The notes under the pieces: model-generated | Told to the model about the DNA's origin: nothing | Seen by the model: only the letters and a program-made list of their open reading frames with translations | The model's database searches: none | Translations under genes and position numbers: made by a program | Assembly: GCF_002160065.1 (NCBI RefSeq) | Contig: NZ_NFJW01000013.1 | Coordinates: 1-51,984 of the forward strand | Length of the DNA stretch: 51,984 nucleotides | Source: Collinsella sp. An2 | GTDB lineage: Bacteria; Actinomycetota; Coriobacteriia; Coriobacteriales; Coriobacteriaceae | Direction: 5' to 3' | In this document: in pieces, positions 6,195 to 34,999 of the stretch | How the letters are laid out: each line of letters begins with the position of its first letter | How positions within the stretch are numbered: position 1 is the first letter of the stretch

Positions 6195-8543
6195 CTACCC
6201 GCGACGCTTCATGGTCTTGGAGCCTTCGCCGGGCATGAGGCGGCGAGCATCGTAGACGCTCTCGACACGGCTGATGGCCGCCAACAGCGGGTCCAGACCG
6301 CTCGCGTCGGAAATCTCGACCAGAAAACGCAGGGTGGCAATGCCCTCGCGATTCGTGGAGGTCGATGCCGACAGGATGTTCGCACCGGCATCGCCGATGG
6401 CGATCGTCACGTCCTTGAGCAGGCCCATGCGGTCGAGACACTCGACCACGATCTCTACCTGGAACAGCGCGTCGGCAGCGTTGTCCCACTCCACGGCGAT
6501 CATGCGCTCGGGGTGCTCCATGAGGCCCTTCACGTTAGGGCAGTTGGCTCGATGCACCGAGACGCCGCGCCCACGGGTGATGAAACCCACGATGTCGTCG
6601 CCCGCAACGGGGTTGCAGCAATGCGCCAGGCGCACGAGCAGCCCTGCATCGGGCGACCCCTTCACCACGACGCCGGAGTTACCCTTGTTCTTGCGAGGAC
6701 GGCGGTTGGAGCCGCGTGCGGGATGCGAAGCCGCGATTGCCTCGACGGCCGGGGCCGTCACCTCGGGCTTGGGGTCCAAGATGTGCGCCACCTTGTTGCC
6801 CACCATGCGCGGAGCGACCTTGCCGGACCCCACCGCGGCGAACAGGTCCTCGAGCTGCTTGTAGTTGAGCTGCTCGCAGACCGTGTTGAGGGCGCGCGTA
6901 GAGCGCGGCGTCGAGATGCCATATCCGCGCTTGCGCAGGTCCTTTGCCAGGATCTCTCGTCCGGCCGCGGCATCCTCGTCCTTGGTCGCCGCAGCAAAAT
7001 ACCGACGAATCTTGGACTTCGCCGACGGCGTCTTGACGATGTTCAGCCAGTCGCGCGACGGCTTGGCATTCTTGTTGGTGAGGATCTCCACCCGGTCGCC
7101 GGTGAGCAACACGTGCGTCAGCGGCGCGACCACGCCGTTCACCTTGGCGCCAACGCAGTGGTTGCCCACCTCGGTGTGGACGGCGTAGGCGAAGTCGAGC
7201 GGCGTAGAGCCCGCGCGCAGGCTCATGACCTCGCCCTTGGGGGTGAAGACAAAGATCTCCTGGTCGTACAGGTCCACCTTGAGGGAGTGCAGGAACTCCT
7301 TGGGGTCCTCGATCTCGTCGGAGGCGACCCAGTCAAGCGAATGCTTGAGCATGTTAATCTGGTCGTCGAGCCGCTGGGCGTCGAGCGACTTCGTAGCCGA
7401 CGACCCGCCCGACTTCTTATAGAGCCAGTGGGCGGCGATGCCGTATTCGGCCTGCTCGTGCATCTCGTAGGTGCGAATCTGGATCTCGAGCGGGCGCGCC
7501 GTGGGTCCGATGACCGTGGTGTGCAGGCTCTGGTAGTTGTTGAGCTTGGGCATGGCGATATAGTCTTTGAACCTGCCCGGCATAGGATGCCACAGGGAGT
7601 GCACCGCACCCAGCGCAGAGTAGCAATCGCCCACCGTACGGCAGATGACGCGCAACGCCACGAGGTCGTAGATCTCTGAGAACTCCTTGCCCTTGCGGCG
7701 CATCTTCTGATAGATGGACCAGTAGTGCTTGGAGCGCCCGTTGATCTGAAAATCGGTGAGGCCGGCGCTTTTGAGCTCGTCGGTAAGTGTCTTTATGGTC
7801 TCGGCCAGGAACCGTTCACGCACCTCGCGCGACTCCGCCACCATGCGTGCGATGCGCTGGTAGGCGTCCGGCTCCAGATAGAAGAACGAGAGGTCCTCGA
7901 GCTCCCACTTGATGGAGCTCATGCCCAGGCGGTCGGCGAGCGGCGCGTAGACGTCCATGGTCTCGCGCGCCTTGAAGAGCCGCCGATCCTCGCGCAACGC
8001 CGCAAGCGTACGCATGTTGTGTAGACGGTCGGCGAGCTTCACGATGATGACGCGAATGTCCTTCGACATGGCGAGGAACATCTTTCGCAGGTTGAGCGCC
8101 TGCTTCTCGTCCATGCTGTCGACTTCGATGTTGGTGAGCTTCGTCACCCCGTCGACGAGCTCGGCGACGGTATCGCCGAAGATGCCCGCGACGTCCGCAA
8201 GCGATGTCTCGGTGTCCTCGACGGTGTCATGGAGCAGCGCCGCGCACACCACGTCGCAGTCCATCTTGAGCTCGGCCAGAATAATCGCGACCTCTACGGG
8301 ATGGTTGATGTAGAGCTCACCGGAGCGACGCTTCTGGTTGGAGTGCTTTTCCGCCGCGAAGCAATAGGCGTGCTCGACCTTGGCGCCATCCTCGTCGCTC
8401 ATGTACTTGCCGCAGAGCTGCGCGAGTTTGTCGTAGTTGTCGGCCTGAATCTCGGGCGGGAGGTCATCCGCCCGGGTATAGAGCACCATCTTGTCGAACG
8501 GCTGCAGGGATGCATCGTGCGCCGCGCGGGAAGCTGCGTCCAT
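6195..8543 (-). CDS. rel: Bifunctional (p)ppGpp synthetase/hydrolase Rel
   Basis: Rel makes (p)ppGpp from ATP and GTP/GDP on starved ribosomes and hydrolyses it otherwise. At 782 residues it has the full long-RSH architecture: an HD hydrolase domain with intact HDTVED at 105-110; a synthetase domain with RFKD about residue 325, the R-x-K-D form typical of bifunctional enzymes; a TGS domain (EIFVFTPKGEVMSL); a conserved-Cys zinc-finger-like part (RLAHCCNPVAGDDIVGFIT); and a C-terminal ACT domain. The start has AAGGGGG upstream. It begins 24 nt after the recJ fusion gene, so the two are probably co-transcribed, an arrangement common in other bacteria. Confidence 0.97.
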   Translation of the reverse strand: MDAASRAAHDASLQPFDKMVLYTRADDLPPEIQADNYDKLAQLCGKYMSDEDGAKVEHAYCFAAEKHSNQKRRSGELYINHPVEVAIILAELKMDCDVVCAALLHDTVEDTETSLADVAGIFGDTVAELVDGVTKLTNIEVDSMDEKQALNLRKMFLAMSKDIRVIIVKLADRLHNMRTLAALREDRRLFKARETMDVYAPLADRLGMSSIKWELEDLSFFYLEPDAYQRIARMVAESREVRERFLAETIKTLTDELKSAGLTDFQINGRSKHYWSIYQKMRRKGKEFSEIYDLVALRVICRTVGDCYSALGAVHSLWHPMPGRFKDYIAMPKLNNYQSLHTTVIGPTARPLEIQIRTYEMHEQAEYGIAAHWLYKKSGGSSATKSLDAQRLDDQINMLKHSLDWVASDEIEDPKEFLHSLKVDLYDQEIFVFTPKGEVMSLRAGSTPLDFAYAVHTEVGNHCVGAKVNGVVAPLTHVLLTGDRVEILTNKNAKPSRDWLNIVKTPSAKSKIRRYFAAATKDEDAAAGREILAKDLRKRGYGISTPRSTRALNTVCEQLNYKQLEDLFAAVGSGKVAPRMVGNKVAHILDPKPEVTAPAVEAIAASHPARGSNRRPRKNKGNSGVVVKGSPDAGLLVRLAHCCNPVAGDDIVGFITRGRGVSVHRANCPNVKGLMEHPERMIAVEWDNAADALFQVEIVVECLDRMGLLKDVTIAIGDAGANILSASTSTNREGIATLRFLVEISDASGLDPLLAAISRVESVYDARRLMPGEGSKTMKRRG

Positions 8544-8567
8544 AGTCGCCCCCTTACCTCGATGTTC

Positions 8568-11500
8568 TCACGCCCGAGGGACGATCGGGCGATTCACTCG
8601 TGCAAGCATATCATGAGCCGGTGCCTCAAGCGCCCAGCGGCGAAACGCCGTAAAGGCGACGCGGGCATGCAGCCCCTCCAGATACCTGATAGAGCTGGTC
8701 AGCGCCATACGCCCAGGGTTTTCGGCCATATGGATGCGCCGTCCCTCGTCGTGGCCGGAAACCTGCGCGAAACCAAGCTCCTCGAAGATCGCCAGGCCGC
8801 TGCCCACGCTGCGCTCGTCCACAGGAGTTCGCGCGTCGATGGCAAGGCACATGTTGGCGATGTCCAGGTCGCTGGCCTGGAAGCTCCCCTCCCCCGTCTT
8901 GCCGCGATTGGCGCGCCACATGGTCTGAAGCGCGCGATAGAGCGTCACCAGCTCGTCCCGCTCGGGGGCCGCCGCATCCAGCATGCGCTCGTTGATGCGG
9001 GCATCGCGGGCAGAATACAACAGGTGGATGGACGCCGGAGCGCCATCGCGCCCTGCGCGGCCGCTCATCTGGTTGAACTCAGTCGCCGAGAACGGCATGT
9101 GGTAGAGCACCACGTGGCGGATATCTGGCAGGTTCACGCCCTCGCCGAACGCCGATGTCGACACGATGCACGACAGCGCCCCCGACCGGAAGGCGTCCTC
9201 CACCCGCGCGCGATCCGAGCGGGTGAGCCCTGCGTTGTAAAACGCCACCGAACCCGCGAGCTCGGGAACGCGCTTGCGCAGCGTGCGGGCGAGCGACAAC
9301 GACTGGTCGCGCGAGTTGACGTACACGACGCACTTCTCGCCCGTGGCCACGATGGAGACCAGGCGGTTTTCGCGGCTTGCAAGGTCGCGGTCATCTTCGA
9401 TGTCCAGGTTCTCGCGCACCGTGCCGTCCACCACCACGCGGTCGATACCCGCCAGGCGGCAGATCTCACGCGCGACGGAGGTGTCGGCTGTCGCCGTGGC
9501 AGCCAAGACGCAGGGGCGCCCTAGATCCTCGAGCACCTGAGGAAGGTCCTGATAGGCGGTTCGGTCGCCGCCTTTGGCACCTGCCGCATGGTGCGCCTCG
9601 TCCACCACCACGAAGCCCACGCGCCGCGCGCGGGCAAACCGGCTGCGGTGGATGGACAGGAACTCCGGGGTCGTGAGCACGATGTCCACCGAGCCGGACT
9701 CGAGCCCGGCAAAGGCGGCATCGCGCGCCGCCTGGACGCTCTCGCCGGTAAGCACGGCCACGCGAACACCCAGCTTGCCGCAGACGGAAGCCAGGTGATA
9801 GGCCTGGTCGGCCACGAGCGCGCGCAGGGGATATACGAAGACGCTGGCGCGACCGTTCAGCACGGCCTCGCGCACGGCATGCACCTGGAAGATAAGCGAT
9901 TTGCCGCGCCCCGTCCCCATGACGGCGAGCACGCTCTCGCCTCGCTTCAAGGCGTCGAGGGCCTCGACCTGGGCGCGATGCGGCTCGGCGGCACCGATAA
10001 ACGTATGCAGCAACGTACGGGTAAGCTCGTCGTAGGACAGATTTGCAAGCATGGCGCGCCGCTCGGCACCCCGAGCGGCAAGGTCTGCCGCAGAGGCATC
10101 GGGAACCGCGGACGGCTGGGCACAGGGCCGGCCGCCCTGGGACGGCTCCCCCTTGGCGAGCGCCGCATCGGAGGCGCTACCCGGGGCACCTGCGCCCTGG
10201 GCGGCGCCGGCGGGCGCATCGTCGCAGGTGCGGCGCAGAATGTCCTTCACCATGAGCTTGGGCTTCACCCTGCCCTGCCAATGCTCGGCGACCGCCTCGA
10301 ATACCAAATCGACCACGCTGTCGCAGGCACACAGGGCATCGACGTCGGGCGCACGGAACATGATGGCGGGCACACTCGCCACGCCGTCGGTCGCCGTGAA
10401 GCGGATGTGATCGCCCGTGCGGCCCACGACGGCACGGTCCTGCATGGTGACGCCCGTCGCCGCCAGCAGCGGCACCCGGTTGCCCTGGCCAAACGGCTCC
10501 AAGATCGAAATCTGCTCGACCGTGTCGATGTCGAGCTCCGAGAGTGAGACGGTCGCCGCGACCTCGCCGGTATCCTCAAAGGCTTCGGCAGGCAGCTCAG
10601 AGAGCACGGCATCCATGCGCTCGCGAAGCGCATCGAGGTTCTCGGCAGGAAGGGTGACGCCCACCGCGCCGGCATGCCCGCCGAACCGCGTGAGCAGATC
10701 GGAGCACTGCTCCACCGCCTCGAACAAATTCACCGTTCCCACCGAGCGACCCGAACCGCGCGCGACGCCGTCTTCGATTGAAAAGAGCAGGCAGGGCACG
10801 TGATACCGATTGACCAGACGGCTTGCCACGATGCCCTTCACGCCCTCGTGCCAGCCTTCTCCACCCACCACGATCACCCGTCCGCCGGTATAGGTCTCCT
10901 CGACCTTGGCCATGGCGTCGTCGGTAAGGTGCGCCTCTATGTCGCGCCGCTCTTGGTTGATCTGCTCCAGCTTTGCCGCCAGGCGACCGGCCTCCACGGG
11001 GTCGCGCTCCAGCAGCAGGTCGAGGGCGAGCGTCGGGTCGGCCATGCGCCCCGCCGCGTTGAGCCGTGGGATGAGCGAGAACGAGAGCGCGTCCGCCGTA
11101 ATCGTCGACAAATCCGTCTTGGTAAGCGCGGCAAGCGCCACAAAGCCCGGACGCGACGTGGCGCGCATCTGGGCGATGCCGTCGGCCACAAGAGCGCGGT
11201 TCTCGGGCGTAAGCGGCATCATGTCCGAAACCGTTCCAAGCGCGGCGACCTCGGTATAGCGCCGCCACAGCTGGGGTTTGCCGCGGCGCGTCCCCAGCAC
11301 GTCCACCAGCTTGAGCGCGACGCCCGCGCCAGCAAGCTCGTGCGAGGGTCCGAAGGGGACGAGCTTGGGGTCCGTGAGCGGAACGCCTTGCGGCACCATG
11401 TCGGCTGGCTCGTGGTGGTCGGTCACCACCAGGTCGATGCCGCGCTCGCTGAGATACGCCACCTCATCGCGGGCGGCAATGCCGTTGTCCACCGTGATGA

Positions 11501-33221: not shown

Positions 33222-33248
33222 TTGCAAAGCACTTTATCGTGCTATAGT
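33222..33248 (+). promoter_or_regulatory. trp promoter with internal palindrome
   Basis: TTGCAA (33222-33227) and TATAGT (33243-33248) form a -35/-10 pair with a short 15-nt spacer. The spacer is filled by the palindrome AGCAC-TTTATC-GTGCT (33228-33243), in the position expected for a repressor operator. The start would be near 33255, 45 nt before the leader peptide. The rest of 32933-33221 shows nothing recognisable. Confidence 0.55.
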
Positions 33249-33299
33249 GAGCGCACTCCGAGAAGCGTCCGGCCAAGCCGGCAAGGGGAAGGTCCACCG

Positions 33300-33398
33300 A
33301 TGACGTTGGCAGCGAACACATCTTTTAGCCTGTGCGCCGCACAGACCCTTGCTGCTGCATGGTGGTGGAACAACGGAATGCGCCCCCTCTCGGACTAG
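33300..33398 (+). CDS. trpL: Trp leader peptide with Trp-Trp-Trp
   Basis: This 32-residue open frame has a good binding site (GGGGAAGG, nine bases upstream). It reads MTLAANTSFSLCAAQTLAAA, then WWW (codons at 33360-33368), then NNGMRPLSD. Three consecutive Trp codons followed by competing hairpins is the standard design of a transcription attenuator. The hairpin CTGTGC-GCC-GCACAG (33330-33344) inside the coding part is the expected pause structure. The peptide itself probably has no function other than ribosome timing. It is too short for usual gene calling. Confidence 0.92.
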   Translation: MTLAANTSFSLCAAQTLAAAWWWNNGMRPLSD

Positions 33399-33399
33399 C

Positions 33400-33458
33400 T
33401 CCGGCTTCTGCACTCGCACGCACGAAGGCCTCCGGATCGTCCGGAGGCCTTCTTTTTT
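33400..33458 (+). terminator. Trp attenuator: antiterminator and terminator
   Basis: The terminator is a perfect 13-bp stem, GAAGGCCTCCGGA (33424-33436) with its complement (33440-33452), around a TCG loop and followed by six T. The alternative pairs TCCGGCTTC (33400-33408) with GAAG (33424-33427) plus CCGGA (33432-33436), a 9-bp helix with a 4-nt bulge that destroys the terminator. The leader stop codon (33396-33398) abuts 33400. A ribosome that finishes the peptide therefore covers this arm and allows termination, while one stalled at the Trp codons leaves it free. Confidence 0.9.
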
Positions 33459-33565
33459 GTCGGCATCGGGTCCGCCGGCGCGTCGCGAGTCCGAAGCCGC
33501 ACAACAAAGAGGCGAGGCAAAGCCCCCGTTTCGCGCCACTCGGCGCCGCGTAGAAAGGACCCGCC

Positions 33566-34999
33566 ATGACCACCTCGACCGCACCGTCCGCACCTACCGC
33601 AACCAACGGCGCCGCCAAGGCGCGCGAACCGTATCGTCTGTACCTGAGCGAAGCACAGATTCCCACCCGTTGGTATAACCTGCGGGCCGACATGCCCACC
33701 AAGCCCGAGCCCATGCGGCTGCCCACGGGCGCCGTCGCCACAAAGGCCGACCTTGCGCCCGTATTCGCCGACGCGCTTATAGACCAAGAGCTCGATGACA
33801 CGACACCATATTTCGATATCCCCGAACCGGTGTTGGAGATGTATCGGGTCTACCGGCCTTCCCCGCTCTGCCGCGCCTACAACCTGGAGCGCGCGCTCAA
33901 CACCCCCGCGAAGATCTTCTTCAAGTTCGAGGGCAACAACACCTCGGGGTCGCACAAGCTCAACTCCGCCGTGGCACAGGCCTACTACGCCAAGGCCCAG
34001 GGTCTCACCAACGTAACCACCGAGACGGGCGCGGGCCAGTGGGGTACCGCCCTCGCCGAGGCATGCGCACACTACGGCCTTGACCTGGACGTCTTCATGG
34101 TCAAATGCTCATACGAGCAAAAGCCGTTCCGCCGCAACATCATGGAGACCTTCCATGCCAGCGTGACGCCTTCCCCGTCCGACACCACCGAAGTCGGCCG
34201 GCGTATCTTGGCGCAGGACCCCACCAGCTCGGGCTCGCTTGGAACAGCCATCTCGGAGGCGGTCGAGCGCGCCTTGCACGTACCCGAGAATCGCGGCCGC
34301 TACCAGCTGGGATCGGTCTTGAACCAGGTGGTGCTGCATCAGAGCATCATTGGCCTTGAGAGCTACGAGGCCATGCGCGAACTTGGCGAATACCCCGATA
34401 TCGTGATCGGCTGCGCAGGCGGCGGCTCCAACCTGGGAGGTCTCATCGCGCCGTTCATGCGCGACAAGCTCACCGGCGCACGGCCCAACACGCGCTTCAT
34501 TGCCGTGGAGCCCGAGAGCTGTCCGTCGCTCACGCGCGGCAAGTTTGCCTACGATTTTGCCGACACGGGCCAGACCTGCCCCCTGTGCAAGATGTATACG
34601 CTCGGCAACGGGTTCATTCCCAACCCCGACCACGCCGGCGGGCTTCGCTATCACGGCATGAGTCCCATCATCTCGCAGCTCAAGCACGACGGATACCTCG
34701 AGGCCGTCGCGGTAAGCCAGACGGACGTATTTGAGGCGGGCGAGAAGTTCGCCACGCTGGAGACCATCCTTCCGGCACCCGAGAGCAGCCATGCGATTCT
34801 TGCAGCCATCCGCGAGGCGGAGCGCTGCCGCGAGACCGGCGAGGCCAAGACGATTCTCTTTGGACTCACCGGCACGGGGTACTTCGACATGGTGTCCTAC
34901 GACAAGTTCAACCGCGGCGAGATGGAAAACCACCGCCCCACCGACGAAGAGCTTGAGCGAGGCTTTGCAACCATCCCGCATATCCCGGGCATCCAGTAG
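33566..34999 (+). CDS. trpB: Tryptophan synthase beta chain, TrpB2 type
   Basis: This PLP enzyme condenses indole with serine to tryptophan. At 477 residues with a long N-terminal extension (YLSEAQIPTRWYNLRADMP) it belongs to the TrpB2 branch, which often occurs without TrpA. The PLP lysine is Lys131 in SGSHKLNSA, the phosphate loop is GCAGGGSN, and the C-terminal half has GLRYHGMSPIIS. AGAAAGGA precedes the ATG. It lies behind a Trp attenuator and is the only trp gene in the window, so it may act on free indole, for example from gut neighbours (inference). Serine deamination has also been suggested for TrpB2, but attenuation by Trp codons argues for tryptophan supply. Confidence 0.95.
   Translation: MTTSTAPSAPTATNGAAKAREPYRLYLSEAQIPTRWYNLRADMPTKPEPMRLPTGAVATKADLAPVFADALIDQELDDTTPYFDIPEPVLEMYRVYRPSPLCRAYNLERALNTPAKIFFKFEGNNTSGSHKLNSAVAQAYYAKAQGLTNVTTETGAGQWGTALAEACAHYGLDLDVFMVKCSYEQKPFRRNIMETFHASVTPSPSDTTEVGRRILAQDPTSSGSLGTAISEAVERALHVPENRGRYQLGSVLNQVVLHQSIIGLESYEAMRELGEYPDIVIGCAGGGSNLGGLIAPFMRDKLTGARPNTRFIAVEPESCPSLTRGKFAYDFADTGQTCPLCKMYTLGNGFIPNPDHAGGLRYHGMSPIISQLKHDGYLEAVAVSQTDVFEAGEKFATLETILPAPESSHAILAAIREAERCRETGEAKTILFGLTGTGYFDMVSYDKFNRGEMENHRPTDEELERGFATIPHIPGIQ

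Follow-up and report, generated by a model that had tools for sequence, protein, structure and literature searches.

Trp attenuators that depend on a translated leader peptide have been described in Corynebacterium and Streptomyces, where leaders with two or three adjacent Trp codons (WW or WWW) precede trp operons and trpS (Seliverstov et al., 2005, PMC1262725). The gene called "trpB2" in that work was considered as a precedent for trpB2 under a T-box and set aside, as it is the second trpB copy in the trpB2A operon of C. diphtheriae and not a member of the TrpB2 family. For the enzyme itself, the TrpB1 and TrpB2 of Thermococcus kodakarensis use exogenous indole (Hiyama, 2014, cited in PMC11085991), which shows directly that a TrpB2 is able to salvage indole, and indole salvage is also given for the TrpB of Bifidobacterium (PMC11085991).

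The DNA analysed in this study, referred to here as the window, is a stretch of 51,984 nucleotides from Collinsella sp. An2 (GCF_002160065.1, contig NZ_NFJW01000013.1). It possesses a solitary trpB2 gene preceded by a short leader, and is best explained, with a probability of about 0.83, by a ribosome-mediated tryptophan attenuator that would set the transcription of trpB2, with TrpB2 predicted to feed the tryptophan supply of the cell from indole.

Materials and Methods

For comparison, 45 Coriobacteriia trpB2 loci were taken from public genomes. Gene absences were established through six-frame profile searches with positive controls, in which the trp models matched in 14 of 14 control genomes and the tryptophanase model in some only, as expected. 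A covariance model, R1, was built from trpB2 leaders only and run on 150 genomes of Coriobacteriales. Orthologous trpB2 was defined by at least 75% identity, for which 35 Coriobacteriales genomes qualified.

Results

Genome setting and the trpB2 gene

The host genome of the window is Enorma-like (Coriobacteriaceae), with a size of 2.54 Mb and a completeness of 99.87%, and the nearest trpB2 is that of Enorma phocaeensis, at 94% identity. The sequence-only reading had taken the target gene to be a lone TrpB2, and this holds, since the protein scores above the cut-offs of both NF009057 (652.8 bits against 366) and TIGR01415 (549 bits against 518.85), and the gene is monocistronic, with its flanking genes on the other strand. 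With the TrpB1 model TIGR00263 it reached 135.1 bits, which is under the curated cut-off of 392.45. Its alignment with TrpB2 enzymes of solved structure (E 1e-105 to 1e-114) runs over the full length of the protein and includes the SHK, ETGAGQWG and GGGSN stretches.

This is the only trpB-like gene found in the genome by six-frame profile search, and the same searches found none of trpA, trpC, trpD, trpE, trpB1 and tnaA, the first four being those whose presence the sequence-only reading had left in question. A TrpA partner for an alpha-beta tryptophan synthase complex is not encoded, and on this gene content the cell is a predicted tryptophan auxotroph, incapable of de novo synthesis. The trpC (IGPS) domain is missing in 30 of the 35 Coriobacteriales genomes with an orthologous trpB2, and trpA matches were found in three (G136, G141 and G156), one of which is fragmented. 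In deeper Coriobacteriia (loci L085-L114, families f5-f22), a second, distant type of TrpB2 is often encoded near trpC, adjoining trpB1 and trpA, and trpB2 and trpB1 are thus found in one cluster there.

The leader peptide

The features of the leader and its gene are collected in Table 1. The 32-residue peptide with three adjacent Trp codons that had been read from the window was confirmed, and recurs in relatives. A leader with adjacent Trp codons was found at 34 of the 45 Coriobacteriia trpB2 loci, nearly always with a terminator behind it; ten other loci show T-box features instead, and at one (L040) the upstream sequence was too short. All but one of the 34 leaders carry WWW, the exception (L018) having WW, and in the alignment of 34 rows the first two TGG codons are invariant and the third nearly so. 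When leaders before trpB2 were re-read, leaving out genomes G141 and G170, WWW was seen in 26, WW in one (G159) and a single W in another (G254), and none of these relatives was seen to keep the hairpins without Trp codons.

Table 1. Features of the trpB2 leader and gene, with positions in the window
Feature	Positions	Strand	Basis or remark
Shine-Dalgarno-like GGGGAAGG of the leader peptide	33285..33292	+	read directly
Leader ORF of 32 codons and a TAG stop, with WWW at codons 21-23	33300..33398	+	encodes MTLAANTSFSLCAAQTLAAAWWWNNGMRPLSD
Candidate pause hairpin, 6 bp, in the leader ORF	33330..33344	+	upstream of the Trp codons
Regulatory codons: three Trp in a row	33360..33368	+	first two invariant, third nearly so, across 34 aligned rows
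Leader stop codon TAG	33396..33398	+	end of the leader ORF
Antiterminator 5' arm (UCCGG + CUUC + UGC)	33400..33411	+	duplex prediction
Antiterminator 3' arm, which shares positions with the terminator 5' arm	33420..33436	+	duplex prediction
Intrinsic terminator, a hairpin of 13 bp with a loop of 3 nt	33424..33452	+	sequence; covariation
T6 tract of the terminator	33453..33458	+	read directly
Shine-Dalgarno AAAGGA of trpB2	33554..33559	+	read directly
trpB2 (TrpB-like PLP enzyme, 477 aa)	33566..34999	+	profile matches

Among the trpB2 leaders, the first Trp codon stands 77.0 nt (sd 3.7) away from the apex of the terminator, whereas the position of the leader stop codon floats, lying 21-36 nt from the apex. 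The tight first distance, together with the floating stop, suggests selection on the site at which the ribosome stalls and not on the stop site. Several relatives, too, have similar sites of the AAGGA type ahead of the leader ATG. A promoter scan of the region gave no strict sigma-70 promoter. By eye, TTGCAA and TATAGT can be seen upstream of the leader, with a short spacer of 15 nt. The window has four copies of the sequence TGGTGGTGG, and those outside the leader, three in number, are in apparent coding stretches.

Terminator, antiterminator and pause hairpin

The 13-bp terminator followed by six T, as previously read, is present at 33424-33458, and its pairs covary among relatives: in the 34-row alignment both partners vary in 7 of 11 pairs and 98.1% of cells are paired, which was matched by 0 of 500 shuffles and is far above the slid controls. 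For the antiterminator, 33400-33408 can pair with 33424-33427 and 33432-33436 in 9 bp with a 4-nt bulge, and its 5' arm does begin close behind the stop codon, 2 nt downstream in the window and near the stop in most relatives. The pairing described in the sequence-only reading therefore exists in the window, but its energy is not better than that of dinucleotide shuffles (z of -0.37 for the window, mean z of -0.28 over 35 loci), and swapping the arms across relatives gave no sign that they are co-adapted, both arms varying little. As both tests were negative, the antiterminator is counted here as present but statistically unproven. RNAalifold gave no common structure for the region before the terminator.

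As for the pause hairpin, a 6-bp candidate is present in the leader ORF, but is shared, among the relatives inspected, with the nearest one (L001) only, and no clear conserved 1:2 pause hairpin was seen among the trpB2 leaders inspected. The Rfam Trp_leader model RF00513 did not match the window even at E 10, and the T-box model RF00230 had no match there. Those Rfam matches that were returned for the window were rejected as sub-threshold chance, the best known being Phe_leader (E 0.97).

Tryptophan sensors before trpB2 in relatives

An R1 match lies upstream of trpB2 in 30 of the 35 Coriobacteriales genomes with the orthologous gene, and the other five (G186, G190, G201, G236 and G253) have a T-box there (E 1.9e-16 to 4.7e-14), with a specifier loop that reads UGG (Trp) at the position assigned by the analyst from the alignment. 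With 30 attenuators and five T-boxes, every solitary trpB2 copy examined has a Trp-sensing leader. Of ten T-box-like Coriobacteriia loci, the six that were compared with Rfam each matched the T-box, and a Trp T-box precedes trpB2 in clostridial relatives as well. Loci in the Coriobacteriia and relatives where a T-box with UGG was seen before trpB2 are L028, L032, L033, L035, L041, L044, L218-L222 and L226. Many of these T-boxes score under the Rfam gathering cut-off, and routine annotation would not pick them up.

In the protein tree, the Coriobacteriales copies behind attenuators and those behind T-boxes form one clade with full support, apart from the Clostridia, and each of the two labels needs one change, the split between attenuator and T-box copies being weakly supported (72/54). 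The operon-embedded trpB2 of the deeper Coriobacteriia is a distant subgroup, separated by a branch of around 5 changes per site.

The gene behind the leader is not intact everywhere. At three loci (L149, L151 and L153) the leader is kept and trpB2 has decayed to fragments, and on contig C2 of genome G006 trpB2 has an in-frame stop, which indicates that some hosts can do without the enzyme. Such copies behind kept leaders have the look of a salvage enzyme that is being lost in some species. In G136 (L135 / L225), one of the 30 genomes with an R1 match, a transposase-like ORF lies between an intact leader and trpB2. Two further loci, L169 (G227) and L216 (G154), have a leader of the Eggerthella type (ALLIGAWWWNK.H) but lack a trpB2 downstream, as orphaned or re-targeted attenuators would. 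At L169, an ABC ATPase comes next, together with a membrane protein.

The same leader before transporter genes

R1 also gave full-length matches to leaders that stand before genes other than trpB2. The host genome has such a second WWW leader (L158; genome G000, contig C10, 7679-7783), with the peptide MNWWWRDVNMVGRR followed by a terminator. In this locus (7000-11000), the genes behind the leader encode a pair of TrpP-like ECF S components along with a double ECF ATPase; with Pfam TrpP PF17099, whose gathering cut-off is 27.2, the second S component scores above it (31.1 bits) and the first just under it (21.6 bits). The same leader with a TrpP-like ECF operon was found in around 50 relatives, including many Collinsella without trpB2, and the terminators of 31 TrpP-type leaders covary, in 6 of the 15 pairs that the structure prediction gave. 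As transporter leaders were absent from the training of R1, they are an independent test of it. Weak R1 matches at L160, L162, L175 and L177 have no Trp leader and were dismissed as chance.

In two genomes (L167 in G121 and L193 in G232), a WWW leader precedes a sodium symporter of the SNF family, of which the best solved relative is 4us3, which we take to be the tryptophan-binding transporter MhsT. Directly after the symporter in G121 comes another WWW leader, this one with an S-component operon. At around 680-785 of L158, the end of the Trp-codon stretch, GGCGTGATG, is by eye perfectly complementary to the downstream CATCACGCC, and the two make a candidate 1:2 hairpin of a kind that the trpB2 leader is without.

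Discussion

The order of the elements in the window would fit a classical switch. With charged tRNA-Trp plentiful, the ribosome would pass the Trp codons and reach the stop codon at 33396-33398, where it would mask the 5' arm of the antiterminator, allowing the terminator (33424-33458) to form and RNA polymerase to halt before trpB2. With charged tRNA-Trp scarce, the ribosome would stall on the Trp codons, some 30 nt earlier than the stop, and 33400-33411 would pair with 33420-33436, so that the terminator would be blocked and trpB2 made. We infer that the leader responds to tryptophan, that the antiterminator is the switch and that indole is the substrate in vivo.

Of the elements of this switch, the antiterminator has the least support, and the best-conserved features of the leaders are the WWW codons, the spacing and the terminator, all of which would suit a leader that acts through translation in some other way than by a 2:3 antiterminator, be it via Rho, by ribosome-release control of pausing or by sequestration of the trpB2 start. 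Such a route is judged rather unlikely, however, given that nearly all copies have a strong intrinsic terminator separating the leader from the gene, and that the alternative arm lies right behind the leader stop in most of them.

The role of the stand-alone TrpB2 has long been debated, with serine breakdown, a spare synthase and indole salvage all having been suggested. The claim of the sequence-only reading that TrpB2 serves tryptophan supply is strengthened here by the missing trp genes, by the T-boxes on the same gene and by the shared control with TrpP-like transporters. The attenuator might instead be real and be the relic of an ancestral trp operon, with TrpB2 mainly degrading serine or carrying out another PLP reaction. 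A serine deaminase role was indeed proposed from phyletic patterns, but TrpB2 proteins had poor serine deaminase activity (PMC1854888), and serine breakdown would not need to be induced by a shortage of tryptophan. Some relatives do keep the leader while trpB2 decays, as a relic might; against this, the leader shows conservation and covarying stems in place of decay, the Trp-specifier T-boxes place the same gene under tryptophan control in two unrelated forms, and the operon-embedded trpB2 is such a far-off subgroup that the solitary gene is not simply a leftover of an operon. A relic on a serine-degrading enzyme is for these reasons considered improbable. That the leader is an ordinary terminator with a chance small ORF and no translation-coupled switch is scarcely credible, for although GC-rich DNA forms hairpins readily and the antiterminator is no better than shuffles, WWW stands in 33 of 34 relatives at a near-fixed distance to a terminator that covaries, and the architecture recurs in a gene family of this pathway that is independent of trpB2.

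The two unrelated kinds of Trp sensor, and the leader shared with a likely tryptophan importer, argue that the job of TrpB2 is tryptophan supply. Most likely, TrpB2 belongs to a small tryptophan-supply regulon and salvages the indole of neighbours. Indole crosses membranes, and in cells without trpA and tryptophanase it must come from neighbours; TrpB2 would condense this outside indole with serine or activated serine to give tryptophan, and the TrpP-like ECF importer, under the same kind of leader, would act in parallel. More broadly, it is probable that a single WWW attenuator design runs a tryptophan-scavenging regulon in the Coriobacteriales, made up of TrpB2, the ECF importer and the sodium symporter, and that attenuator and T-box have been exchanged on trpB2, in one direction or the other.

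Trp sensors of two kinds on all solitary copies examined in one order, together with a leader type shared with a likely tryptophan importer, are genome-wide evidence that TrpB2 serves tryptophan supply. Enorma, Olsenella, Eggerthella, Gordonibacter and relatives with an intact trpB2 are predicted to turn the indole of their neighbours into tryptophan; the source would be tryptophanase-positive members of the gut community, and gut indole pools would be affected. In trpB2, nature may also provide an example of one gene on which ribosome-mediated attenuation has been swapped with the tRNA-sensing T-box.

Comparison with known systems

As in Corynebacterium and Streptomyces, the leader has tandem Trp codons (two or three), a GC-rich terminator and, as a candidate here, an alternative antiterminator, and both fall within the Actinobacteria broadly; the leaders described there, however, control biosynthetic trp operons or trpS in other classes, the Coriobacteriia being outside that study (PMC1262725), whereas the targets here are a solitary trpB2 and likely tryptophan importers in predicted tryptophan auxotrophs. 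The logic would also be that of the E. coli trp leader (RF00513), in which stalling on Trp codons picks the antiterminator or the terminator, but the E. coli leader controls trpEDCBA and not a salvage gene, and the pause hairpin is not conserved in the present leaders. Trp T-boxes (RF00230) likewise sense tryptophan supply via tRNA-Trp and act by transcription termination, but bind uncharged tRNA directly and have no leader peptide.

For the metabolic setting, Chlamydia trachomatis, whose TrpB is a TrpB1-type enzyme, is comparable, being a tryptophan auxotroph with a Trp-regulated trpB (trpRBA) and indole salvage, which is predicted here; it differs in also having trpA, the TrpR repressor and YtgR. 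To our knowledge, no leader is known for the trpB2 of Pyrococcus horikoshii. This archaeal gene resembles that of the window in standing without other trp genes (PMC1854888). Thermococcus and Bifidobacterium differ in having other trp genes, and no attenuator is described for them in the available part of the source (PMC11085991).

In the literature outside subscription journals, no report was found of an attenuator on a stand-alone trpB2 or of a Trp-attenuated TrpP-like ECF operon, nor of Coriobacteriia in the context of Trp attenuation. In this body of work, nothing that links TrpB2 with Collinsella was found, and among papers joining Coriobacteria, tryptophan and leader peptide none describes such a system, as judged by title and abstract. 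The mechanism itself is classical; what is new is the set of targets, its use in auxotrophs and its exchange with T-boxes.
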